Shown here: in pieces, positions 35,166 to 43,330 of the stretch
How positions within the stretch are numbered: the first letter of the stretch is position 1
Layout: each line of letters opens with the position of its first letter
Assembly: GCF_025353065.1 (NCBI RefSeq)
Contig: NZ_JANXRJ010000319.1
Coordinates: 1 to 64,000, forward strand
Length of the DNA: 64,000 nucleotides
Direction: 5' to 3'
Origin: Lapillicoccus sp.
Lineage (GTDB): Bacteria; Actinomycetota; Actinomycetes; Actinomycetales; Dermatophilaceae
The notes under the pieces: generated by a model
Seen by the model: the letters and a program-made list of their open reading frames with translations, nothing else
Told to the model about the DNA's origin: nothing
The model's database searches: none
Position numbers and translations under genes: made by a program

Positions 35166-35774
35166 TCACCCATAGGGAAGGCCACCACTGGCGCAGCTCG
35201 CGGCGACTGCGTCCACCAGGTCGACTCCGCTGTGGCGGTCGAAGACGACCGGTTCTCCGGTGTAGGCGTCGATCGCCGTGATGACGAGCGACCGCTCCGG
35301 CCACCGCTGGCTGGGCAGCCGCGAGGCGACGGTGGCGCGCCAGCGAGCCGGCCAGGACCCGTCCGAGGCCGCCTCCTTGGCGAGAGCAGCCGCTCCCATT
35401 CTGCGGCGCATGTCAGTCACGTCGGCGGCGGCGGCGATGATCGCCAGGAAGCTCTCGAGGTGGGTCGCCACCGGCCGAGGGGTGACGCGTCCCCGATCGG
35501 ATCCGGTGGGGGTCGTGGCGTGCCGGGGCGGAGCGGCAACGGTGGCGGCGAACAGCTCGGTCGGGCTCGCGCCGGCGATCTGGGCGGCTGCCGTGGATCC
35601 GGCCGATGTCCCGACGGTCATGTCGGCGGTCGTCACGTCCAGCCCCGCGCCGAACAGGCCCGCGATGACGCCGATGAGCCACGCGTTGCCGGTCGAGCCA
35701 CCGCCACCGAGGACCAGAGCCCGGTTGCCGGTTGTTTCCGTGAAGTACTTGGTCGGGAAAAGGATGGTGTTCAT
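35166..35774 (-). pseudogene. patatin-like phospholipase, truncated
   Basis: The first 200 or so residues match patatin-like phospholipases: oxyanion loop LVLGGGGSTGNAW and nucleophile motif GTSAGS, then ITAIDAYTGEPVVFDRHSGVDL and AVAASCASGGLP. The frame then ends in Tyr-Gly-stop, just where the family continues into the part bearing the catalytic Asp (the DGG/DGA motif). So the acyl hydrolase cannot be complete. ATG at 35774 has AAAGG about nine bases before it; a GTG lies 18 bases further up. The break coincides with a 9-bp sequence, acccatagg, repeated in inverse at 36048-36056. Confidence 0.85.
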
Positions 35775-35825
35775 GGGAGCTGCCTTTCGCACGCTGCGCG
35801 AGGGCGCTCCCGGCTGGCGACGTGG

Positions 35826-35876
35826 TCAGTCGCGTGTCGTGGACTGCGGGGAGCACCCACTGGACGTGGGGTTCAT
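35826..35876 (-). CDS. possible 16-residue leader-like ORF
   Basis: A very short frame, MNPTSSGCSPQSTTRD, begins with ATG at 35876 behind a good ribosome-binding sequence (AAGAGGTG, six bases before the ATG) and ends 51 bases before the patatin start. It could be a leader peptide or the start of a disrupted gene. Only the ribosome-binding site supports it. Confidence 0.25.
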   Translation of the reverse strand: MNPTSSGCSPQSTTRD

Positions 35877-36058
35877 GGGTTCTCACCTCTTGCCGGTCGA
35901 TCACGGTTCTCCTGGAACATCATCGTCGGCGAACCAGCGGACAAGGGGAATCGGTGTCCTCGAGGCGACGGCCGCCGCCACGTCGACGACCCGGTGAGGC
36001 GGGTATCGCCCACGGCGCCGTCGGCACCCGCTTCGCCAAAGGACGCTCCTATGGGTTG

Positions 36059-36244
36059 TCAAGTGGTGGTGGGGCCGTGTTCCAGGAGTCGGTAGAGGTC
36101 TCGGGCGATGTCGCGCTTGAGGATGCGGCGGATGTCGCGGGGGGTTTTGCAGTCGGTACGGCGGGCGGTGTAGGCCCTGGTCGGTTCGTCGTAGCGTTGC
36201 CGGGAGACGGTGATGGTGTGCAGGGCGCGGTTAAGGTGGCGGTC
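36059..36244 (-). pseudogene. IS110-family transposase, C-terminal fragment
   Basis: About 60 residues match the C-terminal end of IS110-type transposases: DRHLNRALHTITVSRQRYDE, then AYTARRTDCKTPRDIRRILK and a final ARDLYRLLEHG. This is the basic region after the Tnp domain. Everything upstream (the DEDD domain and most of the Ser domain) is gone, replaced abruptly by Rhs-like sequence on the other strand at about 36243. It is a remnant, not a working element. Confidence 0.85.
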
Positions 36245-37125
36245 GCCCAGCGGCGGCACGACCACCTACACCCACACCCCCAGCGGCAAGCCCGCGACCA
36301 CCACCGGCCCGACCGGCACGGTCACCACCTACACCTACAGCCCGACCACCGGCCAGCTCCTCGAGACCGACATGAGCCGGGCCGGCGCGACGACCCAGAA
36401 GACCGCCTACACCTACTATCCGGACAGTGGGCTGGTCAAAACCATCGGCGATCCTGGCCAACCCACCGACGTGATCACGTATCAGTACGACCCCGACGGT
36501 CACACCATCAGCAAGCAGTATCCGGACGGCACCACCAGCGCCGCCCGCTTCGCGCCCGACGGATCACTGGCCACCGCCACCGACGTCACCGGTGCCGTGA
36601 CCACCTACCAGTACGACGGCACGGGGCTGGTCAAAGGTGCGACTGAGGCCCGCCCCGGCACCACGATCGGTTCTGTCGCCTATACCTACGATTCCCTTGA
36701 CCGGATCCACACCATCGACCGTGGCAACGGTGTGACCACCACGATCACCTACAGCGACGCCAACCAGGTCACCGACCAGACCACGACCGGGCCTGACGGC
36801 ACCGCACTGCACGACGACGCCTACACCTACGACGCGCACGGCAACGTCGCCACGCATACGACGACGACCGCTACTGCCACCACGACGTCGCGCTACGGCT
36901 ATGACGCCTATGACCGGCTGGTCTCCTCGGCCGTCTACCCGAACGCGGCCGGCACCGGGACGCCCACCTCGACCACGGGCTACGTCCTCGATGCCGGCGG
37001 CAACGTCACCCGCCTGACCGCGACCGCAGCCGGCACGACGTCGACGACCGTCAACACGGTGACGTCGGGAGACCAGCTCACGACCCAGACCGTCGACGGC
37101 ACCGCCACCAGCCAGATCTTCAACG
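36243..37125 (+). pseudogene. Rhs/YD-repeat protein fragment
   Basis: About 295 residues of classic YD-repeat sequence run without a start or proper end: units such as GTVTTYTYSPTTGQL, VITYQYDPDGHTISKQYPDG, YTYDSLDRIHTIDRGNG and YGYDAYDRLVSS, all threonine and tyrosine rich. Such repeats form the shell of Rhs/wall-associated toxin proteins. There is no signal peptide, no core RHS motif and no toxin tip. The left junction is with an IS110 fragment and the right with an ISL3 fragment, so this is a cut-out internal piece. Confidence 0.9.
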
Positions 37126-37126
37126 C

Positions 37127-37250
37127 TGATTGGTCCCACGAGACCCGCCGGCGGACCGCGGTTAGCATGTCGTTGCCGAGCTTGACCAAGTGGAACCGAT
37201 CGGCCACGACGACAGCGTCCGGGAGGGCGTAGTGGTCAAGGGGCCCGGAT
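37127..37250 (-). pseudogene. ISL3-family transposase fragment
   Basis: About 40 residues resemble the DDE region of ISL3-type transposases: HYALPDAVVVADRFHLVKLG followed by NDMLTAVRRRVSWDQ, where the Asp in VADRFHLVKL is one of the catalytic acids. Nothing else of the element is visible. On its left it abuts Rhs sequence and on its right it runs into the truncated flavin reductase gene in a different frame. Confidence 0.75.
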
Positions 37251-37593
37251 GCCATGGGAAGCAGTCGAACTGGTGACGTCCCTCACCGCGCGAGCGGCTC
37301 CCGAACCATGTCGCGACCGCCTCCTGACCCGGGGACATGACCGACGCGGCGAACGTACCGGTCTCAGCGACCACCGACCACCACCGCGAGTCCCGGCGGA
37401 CGGCGACGACCACGCGCATCGGGTCCGGACAGATGGCGGCGAGCGAGTCGACCGTCATGCCGTGCACGACGTCGCCTCGGCGAGCCGACACCACGGACAC
37501 GTTCCGGGCCAGGTCCTCGAAGGCGTCGCGCCCCGTGGTGAGCGCGCGCACACCATCGGGTGGGGGAGTCGAGATCGGTCGGGACACGGACAT
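37240..37593 (-). pseudogene. flavin reductase-like gene, 3' truncated
   Basis: The first 118 residues match the flavin reductase (FMN-binding split barrel) family: DAFEDLARNVSVVSARRGD, HGMTVDSLAAICPDPMRVVV, FAASVMSPGQEAVATWFGSR and the HQFDCFPWHPGP block. The family normally continues for another 40-50 residues. Here the frame runs on into antisense ISL3-derived sequence and stops at 37162. ATG at 37593. It is divergent from the RiPP-like precursor gene, 116 bases away, so it may once have served that pathway; that link is inference. Confidence 0.8.
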
Positions 37594-37709
37594 GGTCACG
37601 CCGACAAGGACGCCCCCGGAGCGGTGGAGATACCGGCCGGTCGAGGGTGTATCTGCGGGGACGTCCGCTGCCCCCTCTCGGCGACCCACGAGGAAAGGGG
37701 GTGACTCAG
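37594..37709. promoter_or_regulatory. divergent promoter region of the peptide locus
   Basis: The 116 bases between the truncated flavin reductase and the small peptide gene contain AGATAC (37628-37633) and GTATCT (37649-37654), an inverted pair that places a similar -10-like GTATCT on each strand, facing away from each other. No convincing -35 is seen. A strong ribosome-binding sequence, AAAGGGGGTG, lies seven bases before the peptide ATG. Confidence 0.35.
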
Positions 37710-37841
37710 ATGACGACCACCATCCACACCCCGGCGATGCCGGCGACCCCGTCGCTCAAGCGCATCGTCGTGCGCAACGCCGGTCAGGTTCGGCTCACGG
37801 CTCGCTGCAGCAACTACTGCTACGGCAACTACTGCTGCTAG
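37710..37841 (+). CDS. putative RiPP precursor peptide, four-cysteine core
   Basis: This encodes a 43-residue peptide with a very good ribosome-binding site (AAAGGGGGTG, seven bases before ATG 37710). The first 32 residues are leader-like (MTTTIHTPAMPATPSLKR, then IVVRNAGQVRLTAR) and the last eleven are CSNYCYGNYCC, with cysteines at 33, 37, 42 and 43 and three tyrosines. That layout, with a hairpin and then a PqqD-like/M50 protease gene directly downstream, fits a ribosomally made, modified peptide. I do not recognise its family. A metal-binding or disulfide peptide is the other possibility. Confidence 0.7.
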   Translation: MTTTIHTPAMPATPSLKRIVVRNAGQVRLTARCSNYCYGNYCC

Positions 37842-37851
37842 TCCAGCGCGG

Positions 37852-37889
37852 GGAGCCCGCCTGGTCTCGCCGCCGCTTGGTCGGGCTCC
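37852..37889 (+). terminator. hairpin after the precursor gene
   Basis: GGAGCCCG (37852-37859) pairs with CGGGCTCC (37882-37889), starting 11 bases after the precursor stop and ending 22 bases before the ATG at 37912. A partial terminator here would give more precursor than processing enzyme, a common arrangement in peptide loci. Confidence 0.5.
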
Positions 37890-37988
37890 TCGTCCTACCT
37901 CCGAGACTCTCATGCCATCTGTGATCCTGCGTCAGCTGACCTTCCTCGAGGAAGGTGACGGCGTGTCGTCGGGTGCGCCGAGTCCGAC

Positions 37989-39101
37989 GTGTATGCCGTC
38001 CTGCCACCGGACGGTGCCGCGCTCCTTCGACTCCTCGGTGACCTACCGGTCGACGAGGCCGCCGACCGCTACGCACGGACCTACGGCGAGTCGGTCGACA
38101 TCGACGACTTCCTCGAGGCGATGGCCGACCTGGGTTTCATCGAGGTGCGCGAGGACTCTGACGACGGGCCGTCGCATCCCCGGGTGGCGCCTCCCGTGCG
38201 CTGGCAACGCGCCGGGCGACTGCTCTTCTCCCCCGTCGTCGCCCTGCTGGCTGCGGCGCTGGTGGCCGCGGCCGTGGTCATCGCGATGCTCGACCCCGCG
38301 TTGCGTCCGCACCCAGGAGTGGTGTTCTTCAGCGACTACCTCGTCCTCATCGAGGTCGTCGTCGCTGTCGGACAACTCCCCCTCATCCTCCTGCACGAGC
38401 TCTGCCATGTCCTGGCGGCCCGGCGGCTCGGTGTCCACGCGCGGATCCGGGTCAGCCATCGGCTGTCCTTCGTCGTCTTCGAGACCGTCATGGACGGGCT
38501 CGTCGTCGTGCCGCGACGCCAGCGCTACCTGCCGATGCTGGCCGGGATGGCCGCGGACCTCGTTGTCGCCGCAGGGCTCACCGTCGGCGCCGCCGCGACC
38601 CGTGGGGAATGGGGTGCGACCGGTGTCCTCTCGGGGGTTTTCCTGGCGCTGGCCTTCACGACGCTCGTCCGGTTCGGCCTGGAGTTCGTCCTGTTCCTGA
38701 GGGCCGACGTCGGCTACCTCATCCTCACCCTCACGGGCGCCCACGACCTGCACTGCACCTCGAGCCAGATCACCGCGAACTGGTTCTGGCGCCGGCTCGG
38801 TCGCACCGACCAGCTCCACGACCCGACGCTGTGGCACGCCACCGACGTCCGGGCCGCCCGGTGGTACACCCCGATGCACCTGCTCGGATACGCGCTGTCC
38901 TTCGTCATGCTCGCTACGGTGCTGCTGCCGATCAGCTGGCGGTTCCTCGCCACTGCTGTCGGCCGGATCCTCCACCCCGACCTCTCGTCGGGTCCGTTCT
39001 ACGACGCCGTGCTGCTCCTGCTGCTCAACCTCGCCCAGCCGGCCACCACCGGTGCGCTCTGGCTGAGGGAGCGCCTGCGCGCCGAACGGCGCACCGGTTA
39101 A
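37989..39101 (+). CDS. PqqD-like/M50-type membrane metalloprotease (5' frameshift)
   Basis: The 370-residue frame has the end of a PqqD-like peptide-binding (RRE) domain (YAVLPPDGAALLRLLGDLP to about residue 53) and then a membrane protein with about six helices and a zinc-protease motif, LLHELCHVLAARRLG (HELCH at 136-140). Such proteins cut leader peptides in RiPP pathways. The first part of the RRE seems to lie in another frame: ATG at 37912 gives MPSVILRQLTFLEEGDGV, and adding one base near 37966 would join it to VVGCAESDVYAVLPP here. GTG at 37989 is the only start in this frame after a stop at 37956. Confidence 0.75.
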   Translation: MYAVLPPDGAALLRLLGDLPVDEAADRYARTYGESVDIDDFLEAMADLGFIEVREDSDDGPSHPRVAPPVRWQRAGRLLFSPVVALLAAALVAAAVVIAMLDPALRPHPGVVFFSDYLVLIEVVVAVGQLPLILLHELCHVLAARRLGVHARIRVSHRLSFVVFETVMDGLVVVPRRQRYLPMLAGMAADLVVAAGLTVGAAATRGEWGATGVLSGVFLALAFTTLVRFGLEFVLFLRADVGYLILTLTGAHDLHCTSSQITANWFWRRLGRTDQLHDPTLWHATDVRAARWYTPMHLLGYALSFVMLATVLLPISWRFLATAVGRILHPDLSSGPFYDAVLLLLLNLAQPATTGALWLRERLRAERRTG

Positions 39102-39174
39102 GGGTCGCGCTCACCGGCGTCGCGACACTCACCGTCCCGTCCCCCTCCGCCATAGACAGAAGCGAGACCACCCC

Positions 39175-40080
39175 ATGAACCGGCATCTCTGGCTCGTCAC
39201 CGAGCCGTCCGACCTCTCCGAGAACCTCCCTGAGCCCACCGAACGGTGGTGGACCGTGAGCGGCGACCGGCGTTGCCGGGGCGCCTTCACCGCCGCGGGC
39301 GGTGTGATGCGGATCGTCGTCCCCGCCCTCCTGGCGGGCGACGCCGAGCTGGTGCAGCGCTACGACATCGAGGTCCTCGCTGCCGCACCCGAGCTGGCCG
39401 ACCGAGTCGAGAACCGACGCACCACCCTGACGTCTCAGGCGGACGCCGCGACGCGGACGCGGTACTACCCCCACGACCGGGCGACCTGGATCGCGCACGG
39501 TCTGACCGACGTCGTCCTGGCCGCGGCGTCACGCGGTGGACGCGGGCACGTCCTCGTCGTCACCGAGGCCGACTGGCTCGACCCGACCGACGCGACGTGG
39601 CTCGCCGAGCTCGTCCGCCGGGCCGACCCCGATCTGCTGCGCCTCGTCGTAGTCACGAGCGGGCGGGAGGTGCCCGAGCCCCTCGGCGGGGCGTTGCGCG
39701 CCTCCGCGGAGCAGGTGAGCGCGACGGCTGCGTGGGCGACCGCCGCCCAAGCGGGCCGGTGGCTGTCCGTGGGGTCCGAACTCACGGCCGCCGTCGACGC
39801 CGGCCTCGCCCTCGACCCGGAGAGCGCTCACCTGCTCTCGCTGCGCGGTCAGCTCTGTCAGGACGCCGGGGACCTCGAGGGCGCACGCGCGTCCCTCGAG
39901 GCCGCCACCCACGTCGACCCCGGTCTCGCTGTCGCGTGGGCGAACCTCGGATCGGTCCTCTACGACCTCGGAGACCTGGCCGGCTGCGTCACCAGTCTGA
40001 AGGGCTCGCTCGCGATCGTCGACGACGCGGACGTCCGCGACAACCTCGCCGTGGTGTCGCGGGTCCTCGCGGCCGGGTGA
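39175..40080 (+). CDS. TPR protein with degenerate ATPase-like domain
   Basis: The 301-residue protein follows the protease gene by 73 bases and is probably in the same operon. The N-terminal 190 residues look like a decayed STAND/AAA-type domain: ATWIAHGLTDVVLAAASRG and VLVVTEADWLDPTDATWLAE (Walker B-like), but with no P-loop. The C-terminal 100 residues form about three tetratricopeptide repeats (SAHLLSLRGQLCQDAGDLEG, then AVAWANLGSVLYDLGDLAG). A scaffold or peptide-binding role in the locus is possible; no enzyme motif is seen. ATG at 39175. Confidence 0.75.
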   Translation: MNRHLWLVTEPSDLSENLPEPTERWWTVSGDRRCRGAFTAAGGVMRIVVPALLAGDAELVQRYDIEVLAAAPELADRVENRRTTLTSQADAATRTRYYPHDRATWIAHGLTDVVLAAASRGGRGHVLVVTEADWLDPTDATWLAELVRRADPDLLRLVVVTSGREVPEPLGGALRASAEQVSATAAWATAAQAGRWLSVGSELTAAVDAGLALDPESAHLLSLRGQLCQDAGDLEGARASLEAATHVDPGLAVAWANLGSVLYDLGDLAGCVTSLKGSLAIVDDADVRDNLAVVSRVLAAG

Positions 40081-40121: not shown

Positions 40122-40598
40122 TCACATGTTCTGGGCGCCGCTCACGATCGCCTGCCGGATGCGGTTGTAGGTGCCGCACCGACAGACGTTGCGGATGGCG
40201 TCGAGGTCGGCGTCGGTGATCGACCGTCCCTGGGCCTTCACCTCGTGCACGAGGGCCACGGCCGCCATGATCTGGCCCGGCTGGCAGTAGCCGCACTGGG
40301 CCACATCGCGCGCGATCCATGCGTCCTGCATGGGGTGCAGATCACCCGGCACGGTGTCCGCGAGGCCCTCGATGGTCGTGATCTCGTCGGTGGCCTTGAT
40401 GTCGGCCACCCGGACCGCGCAGGGGTTGAACGCCTTGCCGTTGATGTGCGAGGTGCACGCCTTGCAGACGTTGATGCCGCAGCCGTACTTGGGACCGGTG
40501 ACGCCGAGGACGTCGCGCAGGACCCAGAGCAGCCGGACGTCGTCTGCGACATCGACCGTGACGTTCTGGCCATTGAGCCGAAAAGTGTGTTGTGCCAT
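40122..40598 (-). CDS. 2Fe-2S subunit of a molybdenum hydroxylase
   Basis: This 158-residue protein has two [2Fe-2S] domains typical of the small subunit of xanthine oxidase-family enzymes: a plant-type cluster (C40, C45, C48, C60 in YGCGINVCKACTSHING and beyond) and a second with C102/C105 (QCGYCQPGQ) and C139/C141 (NVCRCGTYNRI). It passes electrons from the molybdenum centre. It lies 59 bases after the large-subunit gene on the same strand. The closest type is isoquinoline 1-oxidoreductase alpha (IorA). No FAD subunit gene is present. Confidence 0.95.
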   Translation of the reverse strand: MAQHTFRLNGQNVTVDVADDVRLLWVLRDVLGVTGPKYGCGINVCKACTSHINGKAFNPCAVRVADIKATDEITTIEGLADTVPGDLHPMQDAWIARDVAQCGYCQPGQIMAAVALVHEVKAQGRSITDADLDAIRNVCRCGTYNRIRQAIVSGAQNM

Positions 40599-40657
40599 GA
40601 GGTTTCGCCTTTTCTGCAGGTGGGGGGCCAGAAGGCAGGGGCCCAGGATGAGAGGAC

Positions 40658-43012
40658 TCAGAAGGTGGAGGAGAGGCCGTCGGTCGGGGACTGCTGCACC
40701 GGCGGGATGTAGGGCTTCGGGGTGAAGGAGATGGTGCCGTGGTTGATCGGGAACCGGGTCGGGACGGTACCCGTGGCCCGGGCATACGCGCAGGCGGTGG
40801 CCGCGACCGTCGAGGCGACGCCGGCCTCCCCCGCACCCCCGGGGGCGTCGCCGTTCGACGGCATGATGATGCACTCGAAGTCGAGCGGGGTGTTCCACTG
40901 CCGCGTGTAGAAGTAGTTGTCCCAGCTCGCTTCGAGGAAGGCACCCGCCTGCAGGTGGTTGCTGCTCGTGAGCGCGAGGGCGATGCCGTCGTTGACGCCG
41001 CCCATCATCTGCGCCTCGAGTCCCACGGGGTTCACCACGAGGCCCGCATCCACCGCGATGACCGCCTTGGTCACCCTCGGTCCCGTGACCCCGTCCCGGA
41101 TCGGCCGGTTGACGGTGGCGGGACGCGCGTCGATCTCGATGAGCACGGCGGTCGCCCCCTTGTACTCCGCGTGCAGCGCGATGCCCTGCGCGGTCCCGGC
41201 CGGCATCGAGCGCCCCCAGGTCCCGACCTGGGCGACCTTCTGGAGCACCGCTCTGGCCTTGGCGTTCTTGACGAACGCGAGCCGGACGGCGAGCGGGTCG
41301 AGGCCGAGCTTCTTGCCCAGTTGGTCGATGAACAGCTCGTTGGCACAGGCGACGTCGGGTGAGTAGATGTTGCGCATGCTGCCCGTGTTGAAGCCCATGT
41401 CGACCTCGTTGAGCAGCTGGGTCACCACCCCGAAGTTGTAGGGCAGCTCCTGGGTGAGCTCGAAGATCGACTCGGCGAGCCCGAGGTTGCCCAGGCCGGT
41501 CGGCAGCTCCGCGACCATGGCGGTCAGCCGCTCCCCGAGGCCGTGCGAGAAGTCGGTCCGGATGCTCGTATGCCGCTGCTCGAAGGTCAGCACGTTGCCG
41601 GCCAGGACGGTGGCGCGGATGCGGGACGTGGCCATCGGGTGGGTCCGTCCCTGGCGTGGCTCGTCGGCACGGTGCCACATCAGCTTGACGGGCTTCCCCA
41701 TCGCCTTGGAGATCTTCGCCGACTCGAGGGCGGCGTCACCAAAGAGCTTGTGCCCGAACGACCCTCCTCCGGTGACGACATTGACCGTGACGTTGGTCTG
41801 GAGCATCCCCAGTGCGTCGGCGATGTTCTTCTGGGCGACGATCGGCGACTTGAGGCCCGCCCACACCGTCGCGGTGGTGGCGCGGACGTCGGCGATGGCG
41901 CAGTTGGGCTCGAGGGCGGCGCTGCTGCGGAACATGAACTCGAAGCGCATGTCGATCGTCTGGGTGAGGATCGGGACGCGTGGCACGGTCATCGGCAGCT
42001 CGGCCGCCTTGAGCCGCGCGAGCACCGAGGCGTCGGACTGGCCCTCGACCGGACCTCCCTGCCACACGACGTCGAGCGCGCGCACCGCATCGATGCACTG
42101 GCCGAAGGTGGCCGCCCGCACGGCGACCCCGGTGTCGATCATCACGACGTCGGTCACCCCGGGCATCGCCAGGACGACGGGCAGGTTGCGGATCGCCGTG
42201 GGTGACCCGTTGAGGGTCGGCGGCCGGCAGACCATCGTCGGCAGCGCACCCGGCACCTGCAGGTCGGTGGTGAAGGTCTTCTTCCCCGTGACGATGTCGC
42301 GGGCGTCGACCCGGCCGTAGCCCTGGCCGATCACCGAGTAGGCCGACGTCGGCTTGAGGGTCACCGTGACGGGACGGGTCGTGGAGCTCGCGGCCTTCGC
42401 GGCCAGCTGGCCGTAGGTGCGGGTCGCGCCACCGGGCGCCGAGATGACCCCCAGCTTCGTGACGAGATCCGAGACGTTGGCGCCCAGCTCGATCGCCGCG
42501 GCCTGCAGCAGCGCGCCGCGGGCGATCGTGGCCGCCACCCGGATGGGGGTGAACATCGACTCCATCGTGTTGGAGCCGCCGGTCAGCTGGTTGAAGATCA
42601 GCTCGGGGCGGGCCGGTGCCAGGGTGACGTCCACCTTGTCGACGGACACGGCGAGCTCCTCCGCGATGATCATCGCCGCGGCCGTGGTGATGCCCTGACC
42701 GACCTCGGCCCTCGGGATGGCAAAGTGCGCGATCCCCTGGCTGTCGACCGTGATCGTGATCAGCGCCGACGTCGGGAGGGCGGACTGGGTCTGGAGGTCA
42801 CCCAGGTCGTAGGTCTCGGCGATCTGCGGCGGTGAGGGGATCGCGGCCTGGGCCGGCGCCGCCCCCACGCTCAGATCGGCGGCGACCGCGAGGGTGGCGC
42901 CGCCGAGGACGAAGCCGACGAAGGTGCGCCGCTTCAGCCCTGTCTGTCCGGCCTGCTCGGCCTGCACCTCGCGACCCTGCTGGTCGTGTCGATCGTGTGC
43001 CGTCGTGGTCAT
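40658..43012 (-). CDS. molybdopterin-binding aldehyde/isoquinoline oxidoreductase large subunit
   Basis: This 784-residue protein is the molybdenum-cofactor subunit of the IorB type. An N-terminal Tat signal is clear: LKRRTFVGFVLGGATLAVAA at residues 26-45, with cleavage likely after AQA. Cofactor-binding blocks include AEVGQGITTAAAMIIAEEL, GGSFGHKLFGDAALE and, near the end, GGAGEAGVAS with the catalytic Glu. ATG at 43012 has GAGGGG about five bases before it. With the small subunit it should form a periplasm-facing dehydrogenase using an unknown aldehyde or N-heterocycle and a membrane or soluble electron acceptor. Confidence 0.92.
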   Translation of the reverse strand: MTTTAHDRHDQQGREVQAEQAGQTGLKRRTFVGFVLGGATLAVAADLSVGAAPAQAAIPSPPQIAETYDLGDLQTQSALPTSALITITVDSQGIAHFAIPRAEVGQGITTAAAMIIAEELAVSVDKVDVTLAPARPELIFNQLTGGSNTMESMFTPIRVAATIARGALLQAAAIELGANVSDLVTKLGVISAPGGATRTYGQLAAKAASSTTRPVTVTLKPTSAYSVIGQGYGRVDARDIVTGKKTFTTDLQVPGALPTMVCRPPTLNGSPTAIRNLPVVLAMPGVTDVVMIDTGVAVRAATFGQCIDAVRALDVVWQGGPVEGQSDASVLARLKAAELPMTVPRVPILTQTIDMRFEFMFRSSAALEPNCAIADVRATTATVWAGLKSPIVAQKNIADALGMLQTNVTVNVVTGGGSFGHKLFGDAALESAKISKAMGKPVKLMWHRADEPRQGRTHPMATSRIRATVLAGNVLTFEQRHTSIRTDFSHGLGERLTAMVAELPTGLGNLGLAESIFELTQELPYNFGVVTQLLNEVDMGFNTGSMRNIYSPDVACANELFIDQLGKKLGLDPLAVRLAFVKNAKARAVLQKVAQVGTWGRSMPAGTAQGIALHAEYKGATAVLIEIDARPATVNRPIRDGVTGPRVTKAVIAVDAGLVVNPVGLEAQMMGGVNDGIALALTSSNHLQAGAFLEASWDNYFYTRQWNTPLDFECIIMPSNGDAPGGAGEAGVASTVAATACAYARATGTVPTRFPINHGTISFTPKPYIPPVQQSPTDGLSSTF

Positions 43013-43330
43013 CTGAACCCCTCGCTCCGTGGCGATGCGCGACAGACCTCCTGTCGCGGTCCTTGCCCAACGAGCCGACGGCACGGAAGTTACGCGGGGT
43101 AAGGAGTCCCAAGACCGTCACACGGCAAGGCCCGTCCCGCATCCTGCAGGGGAGGAGAGCAACCTCACAAAACGGGCGTCAGATCGCCTCGTGCACCCCC
43201 CCACCACCCCCGCTTCTTGCTTCTGCCGGGCCCGTTCTTACGACATTCCGGTCAGGTTCGGGCACCCTCGGAGCAACAAGCGGGGTCTTGAGATGGCGAC
43301 GGTGCGTCACGCTCGCCGGTCGACGCCTCG
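43013..43330. other. intergenic region between the molybdenum hydroxylase and rsmB
   Basis: No gene is seen in these 318 bases. Close to the hydroxylase start, GCGACAG (43039-43045) and CTGTCGC (43051-43057) form a short hairpin whose loop reads GAGGT on the minus strand, about 30 bases before the ATG; it might affect translation. The rest probably holds the hydroxylase promoter, but no convincing -35/-10 pair stands out. This is the right-hand border of the accessory island. Confidence 0.5.

Follow-up and report, generated by a model that had tools for sequence, protein, structure and literature searches.

The daptide peptidase MpaP is an intramembrane protease that depends on a recognition element (RRE) for ribosomally synthesized and post-translationally modified peptides (RiPPs) and removes the leader, according to its description (PMC10036551). 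Membrane proteases of the M50 family also act on RiPP or RiPP-like precursors in the epipeptide (EpeP) and pearlin (TglG/TmoG) systems (PMC10885120), and the protease described here presumably does the same. The present locus was located in a 64,000-nt stretch of Lapillicoccus sp. DNA (contig NZ_JANXRJ010000319.1, positions 1 to 64,000; hereafter the window). It contained, on the forward strand, a small precursor gene, a gene for an RRE fused to an M50 protease, and a gene for a tetratricopeptide repeat (TPR) protein. The locus is probably a damaged version of a RiPP or RiPP-like cassette that depends on an RRE and is composed of one or more precursors, the RRE-M50 protease, the TPR protein and, mostly, a flavin enzyme, which would bind, cleave, scaffold and modify the peptide.

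Precursor genes and their shared leader

The precursor gene of the window consisted of 43 codons (37710–37841, forward strand; ATG at 37710, stop ending at 37841) and was identified by its open reading frame (ORF) and by the leader that it shares with other loci. A strong ribosome-binding site, GAGGAAAGGGGGTGA, was located upstream of the ATG. The translation, MTTTIHTPAMPATPSLKRIVVRNAGQVRLTARCSNYCYGNYCC, was composed of a 15-residue N-terminal extension, the leader LKRIVVRNAGQVRLT, and the core ARCSNYCYGNYCC.

Relatives were examined at 64 distinct loci (the window, L038, L067, L068, L069, and L122–L180). The protease scored above 430 bits against the profile at 62 of these, which were assigned to the close type; L145 and L147 scored ~246 bits and belonged to another type with ThiF genes. 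Short ORFs with the same leader, one to eight per locus, were found in all 61 close-type loci with upstream sequence, the contig of L068 beginning within the protease gene. They were detected by a regular expression in 60 loci and by eye in the 61st, L168 (MKKITIRKAGPVRLIAAACSQYKVPTLPAS), so that L068, L145, L147, and L168 were the loci without a pattern precursor. The pattern gave 92 precursors besides that of L168, with one copy in 53 loci and two to eight in seven. The original prediction, made from this stretch alone, had taken the 43-residue, four-cysteine ORF with its good ribosome-binding site as the precursor and had tied its case to short ORFs beside homologous proteases; both ideas were borne out by the leader at all 61 loci.

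The leader motif was KKIx[VI]RKxGx[VI]RLT, with the consensus KKIxVRKAGxVRLT. The nearest precursor started 143–422 nt 5′ of the protease match, and tandem copies extended to 1,413 nt within the 1,500 nt searched. Across 93,773 bases upstream in the 61 loci, the strict motif turned up 91 times; it was absent from their antisense and from 700,458 control strand-bases, taken from the surrounding DNA elsewhere in 23 of the regions with wide flanks; the motif was derived from the same loci, and the control thus measures specificity of place, not independence. The looser motif was found 92 times upstream, never in antisense, and once in the control. In tandem precursors, up to eight per locus, the leader was constant and the tails varied. 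The six to eight tandem precursors of L157–L161 mostly had a constant SAAQPLY, with variable tails beyond the Cys.

The core nearest to that of the window was the near-identical ARCSNYCYGNCCCL of the Frankiales metagenome-assembled genome (MAG) RYN_135 (L067), and the core RLCNNYCYGMCCCAEFLG (L149, same place as L181) was also similar. The protease adjoining the L067 precursor was 57% identical to the window protease in the best segment. Judged by sequence, the 43-residue ORF is a genuine precursor gene. Its length and the absence of any Pfam or NCBIfam match would suit a chance ORF, but the 91 motif occurrences upstream of proteases against none in control DNA already contradict that explanation, and the near-identical core beside a related protease in another genome makes it scarcely credible. 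Neither database gave a family for any other precursor submitted; there was a single sub-threshold match. A streptolysin S match of the Cys-rich L069 peptide was rejected (15.8 bits against a cut-off of 35). A precursor search that relied on protein similarity only, run over the 186 genomes of the taxonomic family, gave nothing but noise apart from the window's own ORF: 152 genomes matched at E ≤ 10, and the best foreign match (E 0.005) was within a 384-codon frame.

A stem-loop was predicted between the precursor and protease genes (~37845–37896, forward strand), in agreement with the hairpin proposed earlier, but the 110-nt stretch of the window was not more stable than its own shuffles (z −0.44). 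The corresponding intergenic stretch gave z values below −2 in 45 of 60 loci. The TPR gene was directly downstream of the protease gene in all 62 close-type loci; its match began 8–120 nt past the protease match in 61, and that of L128 was present but outside the distance rule. Precursor, RRE-M50 protease, and TPR protein recur as a set, in support of the three-gene locus first proposed, which overlooked a fourth member, the flavin enzyme described below. The constant leader, the variable multi-copy cores, the RRE-fused protease, the coupled accessory enzyme, and the hairpin in many loci together support the RiPP reading.

Predicted folds and the damaged window copy

The RRE-M50 (site-2 protease) fusion gene spanned 37912–39101 on the forward strand, with the HELCH motif at 38394–38408. 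The His, Glu, and His residues of HExxH were invariant in all 28 aligned proteases, which included the window protease and three of the E1 type. The Pfam matches of the window protease were weak and under the curated cut-offs (PqqD, E 0.06; M50, E 0.052), and the M50 match of the L067 homologue (1e-4) was still under the cut-off. The fold was assessed with a model of the L067 protease (predicted local distance difference test, pLDDT, 92). The N-terminal part of this model matched the leader-bound lasso-peptide RRE TbiB1 (5v1u, probability 1.00, template modelling score 0.69 by target) and 6jx3, and also portions of CteB (5wgg) and ThcOx (5lq4), with probabilities of 0.94–1.00 for 5v1u, 6jx3, and 5wgg. 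The membrane part matched RseP (7w6x, probability 0.96). The model comparison supports a protease made of an RRE, as a PqqD-like winged helix, and an RseP-like protease, which agrees with the PqqD-like/M50 fusion originally proposed.

The TPR/degenerate STAND-ATPase-like gene (39175–40080, forward strand) encoded 301 residues. Its assignment in the original prediction was upheld by Pfam, with a best TPR match of 1.3e-6 and a weak AAA_16 match of 0.0024. The model of the L068 homologue (pLDDT 94) matched OGT-type TPR superhelices. The first 50 fold matches consisted of TPR proteins and further helical-repeat folds, OGT and Tom70 among them, with no clear enzyme in these 50 for the N-terminal part. 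The Walker A pattern was absent from the first 230 residues of all 26 TPR homologues, and an active ATPase is therefore unlikely. PADLOC gave only two weak matches, both in the TPR region and for L068 alone.

From its sequence, the window cassette is a damaged copy in which three of four genes are affected, assembly errors being possible. The start of the protease gene at 37912 (MPSVILRQLTFLEEGDG) was out of frame with the main open frame (37989–39101), so the need for frame repair noted earlier was real; in relatives, the stretches matching the frame break read through in one frame. The window TPR protein aligned at both ends with three homologues (650–697 residues), and ~350–400 internal residues were gone. 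On the reverse strand, an ORF at 37165–37689 contained a truncated flavin reductase-like remnant (domain match ~37243–37512), which matched PF01613 at 7e-18 (profile 4–94 of 153) and the hidden Markov model of the cassette enzyme at 2.6e-17 (14–109 of 168). Its closest relative was the enzyme of L181 (39.5% over 114 residues, E 5.7e-17). The loss of most of this gene fits the earlier suggestion that the locus is what remains of a larger cluster. The genome assembly is a draft in 343 contigs, so the broken protease frame or the TPR deletion may be an assembly error; unless the defects are such errors, the window copy probably no longer makes its product.

An ISL3-type transposase fragment (36983–37255, reverse strand; PF01610, 6.1e-8, profile 73–105 of 240) abutted the flavin remnant. 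By eye, 35166–37255 contained fragments of patatin-like and RHS-repeat proteins in addition to this transposase fragment, all gene remains adjoining the cassette. After the TPR gene, a (2Fe-2S) subunit and a molybdopterin-binding oxidoreductase subunit were seen by eye on the reverse strand (40122–43084) and seemed unrelated.

Core peptides, flavin enzyme, and competing explanations

Tyr and Cys were both present in all 84 distinct cores found by the pattern, and Ala in 83. The composition of neighbouring proteins would predict ~24 cores with Tyr, ~10 with Cys, and ~3 with both, though this constancy is not a probability because the cores are related by descent. Of the 92 precursors, 73 had their first Tyr at position 7 of the core. 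The nearest Cys was located four residues after the first Tyr in 36 of the 84 cores and three residues before it in 20. The CxxxCxxxxCC arrangement of the window core, whose recurrence had been suggested as a check, was one of several core types; it is not the family signature, as the constant elements are Tyr and at least one Cys. At L197, a PF02441 flavoprotein gene was located upstream of the cassette, and the core, SSAPGYCTPCC (same place as L178), ended in Cys. PF02441 is the family of EpiD/LanD, and decarboxylation of the C-terminal Cys is conceivable at this locus.

In 30 loci with wide flanks, genes were predicted with a home-made caller and their products compared all against all by BLAST. 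This comparison revealed a single additional operonic family, Flavin_Reduct, in 14 of the 30. It was encoded 3′ of the TPR gene in 13 (gaps of −4 to 166 nt, with a 4-nt overlap in eight), whereas in L069 its gene lay upstream of the precursor gene. A gene of the old yellow enzyme (OYE) family replaced the flavin reductase gene 3′ of the TPR gene in L072–L075, where a Streptomyces antibiotic regulatory protein (SARP) gene was seen upstream, and an FNR-like enzyme gene took its place in L038. An intact flavoenzyme gene of one of these three types was present in 19 of the 30 loci, and a remnant in the window. When 112 proteins encoded near the cassettes of 27 loci were scanned with Pfam, the results, which covered the 25 commonest of 115 families, showed Flavin_Reduct in 14, BTAD in nine, NB-ARC in five, and LanM in two.

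The pairing of Tyr with Cys, the distance between the two, and the flavin enzyme suggest that the core undergoes a redox step. The RRE-M50 protease likely binds and cuts the leader, by analogy with daptide MpaP (PMC10036551). The winged-helix RRE at the protease N-terminus would grip the leader KKIxVRKAGxVRLT, and the intramembrane HExxH zinc site would cut near the RLT/A junction to free a core of 10–27 residues. The TPR superhelix may serve as a scaffold that binds the precursor or the enzyme. The co-transcribed flavin enzyme, where present, would perform or feed the redox step on the Tyr/Cys pair. A more specific form of this scheme, a RiPP class of a new kind whose TPR-guided flavin reductase-like enzyme oxidatively modifies Tyr or cross-links it with Cys (C-x2-Y or Y-x3-C) before RRE-guided intramembrane removal of the leader, is put forward only tentatively.

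The chemistry might instead come from enzymes outside the cassette, or the peptides might carry only disulfides or bind metal through Cys/Tyr ligands. The lack of the three flavoenzyme types in 10 of the 30 loci and Cys-rich cores such as CYCYCCCCC in L069 favor this explanation, but in 71 of the 92 precursors the core contains only one Cys, which makes an internal disulfide impossible there, and the coupled flavin gene recurs across several genome families. It is regarded as possible but doubtful.

Peptide signalling was also considered, in which the M50 protease would free a short linear pheromone, the TPR protein would sense it, and SARP regulators would be the targets. Eep-type proteases release linear peptide pheromones, and TPR superhelices bind peptides. 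The predicted OGT-like fold of the TPR homologue, the many precursors of fewer than 30 residues, and the SARP/BTAD-like family, found up to ~7 kb away in 15 of the 30 wide regions and as BTAD in the neighbour scan, are consistent with such a role. However, up to eight different cores per locus are atypical of pheromones, Pfam gave no DNA-binding family in the two TPR proteins submitted, those of the window and of L075, and the constant Tyr and Cys beside a translationally coupled flavin enzyme would be left unexplained. Signalling is therefore judged unlikely.

LanM genes (DUF4135 and LANC) were located just upstream of the L038 and L182 cassettes in divergent orientation, with other small ORFs nearby, and a graspetide-like cluster was seen by eye beside L070. 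The L038 and L182 sites may be of a kind where peptide clusters accumulate. These neighbours could make the cassette a satellite of a LanM lanthipeptide or other RiPP cluster, but LanM was encoded at only two of the 27 loci, both LanM genes have the other small ORFs close by, and six of the 84 distinct cores contain neither Ser nor Thr; such dependence is very improbable. LanM was likewise rejected as the modifying enzyme because of its presence at two loci only. In the window, the stated absence of adjacent radical SAM, YcaO, LanM, and transporter genes agrees with the ORF list as read by eye; no family-library scan of all window neighbours was made.

Several observations weigh against the reading of the locus as a RiPP or RiPP-like cassette. 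No modifying enzyme is proven, and a third of the loci have no gene for the three flavoenzyme types: neither an intact nor a remnant Flavin_Reduct, OYE, or FNR-like gene was present in 10 of the 30, among which L194 has an upstream PNPOx-like gene. Flavin reductases usually serve a partner monooxygenase, and no monooxygenase was among the 25 commonest neighbour families. No transporter gene was directly adjacent, and ABC-type genes were 5.6–9.4 kb away in eight of the 30 regions. The cores are far from independent, as 30 of the 84 start with SAAQPLY, and at the plasmid locus L201 (372 bits for the protease, 300 bits for the TPR protein) the candidate peptide, ...MRKISVRRTEPIKVTSAPFSHQPAIVPV, contains neither Tyr nor Cys. 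The Foldseek E-values of the fold matches were weak (0.16–1.4). By our own gene calls, chromosomal settings remote from such proteases also contained relatives of the TPR family, and the TPR protein may therefore have been recruited. By eye, the TPR/degenerate-ATPase relatives of L108–L121 were in recurring settings, adjoining a GNAT-like or smc-like gene.

Distribution and comparison with known systems

When the window protease was used as a query, matches were obtained in five of the 186 genomes from its taxonomic family, including its own; among the other four, the close type was present in one copy only, in G089. The protease was missing from the two other genomes of the genus. At the class level, 17 of 394 genomes matched at E ≤ 1e-10, again including its own. 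In four more groups of genomes, a profile of nine close relatives (E ≤ 1e-70) matched 24 of 260, 15 of 150, one of one, and 15 of 120; the groups were picked for holding earlier matches, so that these are not population rates. At the phylum level, three of 296 genomes matched: its own, the already known G278, and a new, distant one at 249 bits. A contig scan with two narrow patterns gave only three loci. The named loci included the Frankiales MAG (L067), a MAG contig labelled Deltaproteobacteria (L068), which may be mis-binned, Blastococcus mobilis DSM 44272 (L069), and, as a divergent case, a plasmid of Streptomyces sp. NBC_01450.

The family was present in dozens of actinobacterial genomes. 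It appears to be a recurring, patchily distributed class of ribosomal peptides without a common classical modifying enzyme, whose precursors are not recognised by NCBIfam or Pfam. The constant Tyr and Cys beside a translationally coupled flavin enzyme point to a testable and possibly new peptide chemistry. In Blastococcus mobilis DSM 44272, the precursor, protease, TPR, and flavin genes were all open, and this intact cassette makes a direct test possible. A damaged locus can thus point to an intact family.

More distant proteases were found in 17 regions (L039–L042, L077–L087, L145, and L147). A ThiF-like relative (query L042, E ≤ 1e-5) was present in 15 of these, being missing in L077 and L079, and in none of the 30 TPR-type regions, whereas the TPR profile matched none of the 17 and all of the 30. 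The two distributions are reversed, so the TPR gene is the mark of a separate system. The loci with an E1-like (ThiF) protein, an RRE-M50 protease, and short peptides (e.g. L039–L042, L078, L080, L145, and L147) share the related protease, and the E1-type loci looked at had short peptides such as MKIEIREVENTRLTVWVPEEDS and MKLEIRKVENTRLTYFIPDYDS, as did L145 and L147. The E1-type leader of L039–L042, MKIEIxxxENxRLT (MKIEIREVENTRLT...), is recognisably related through its ...RLT end; the leader and protease thus appear common to both types, and the partner protein differs. None of the five peptides beside L039–L042 combined Tyr and Cys. On these sequence grounds, the E1-type loci are a sister peptide family. 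Neither the E1-type peptide loci nor the TPR-type cassette was described in the literature searched, which left out most subscription journals, so that a description of the cassette may exist.

The cassette does not fit the lanthipeptides, given LanM at only two of 27 loci and the cores without Ser or Thr. The partner enzymes of EpeP and of TglG/TmoG are radical SAM enzymes and peptide aminoacyl-tRNA ligases (PEARLs), respectively, and neither was among the 25 commonest cassette neighbour families. The daptide aminotransferase, Fe-alcohol dehydrogenase, and methyltransferase were likewise not among these families. When the cassette was compared with the daptide system (MpaA-D, M, and P) as given in the available part of PMC10036551, the daptide leader ELExMEAP was absent, with KKIxVRKAGxVRLT in its place, and none of the 84 distinct cores ended in the Thr of daptides. 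The TPR and flavin genes are outside the daptide description in that part of the source. Both systems have several precursors per cluster, hosts that include Actinomycetota, and the fusion of an RRE to a site-2 protease (PMC10036551, same part). The cassette is most likely an undescribed RiPP or RiPP-like class that shares this fusion with the daptides.

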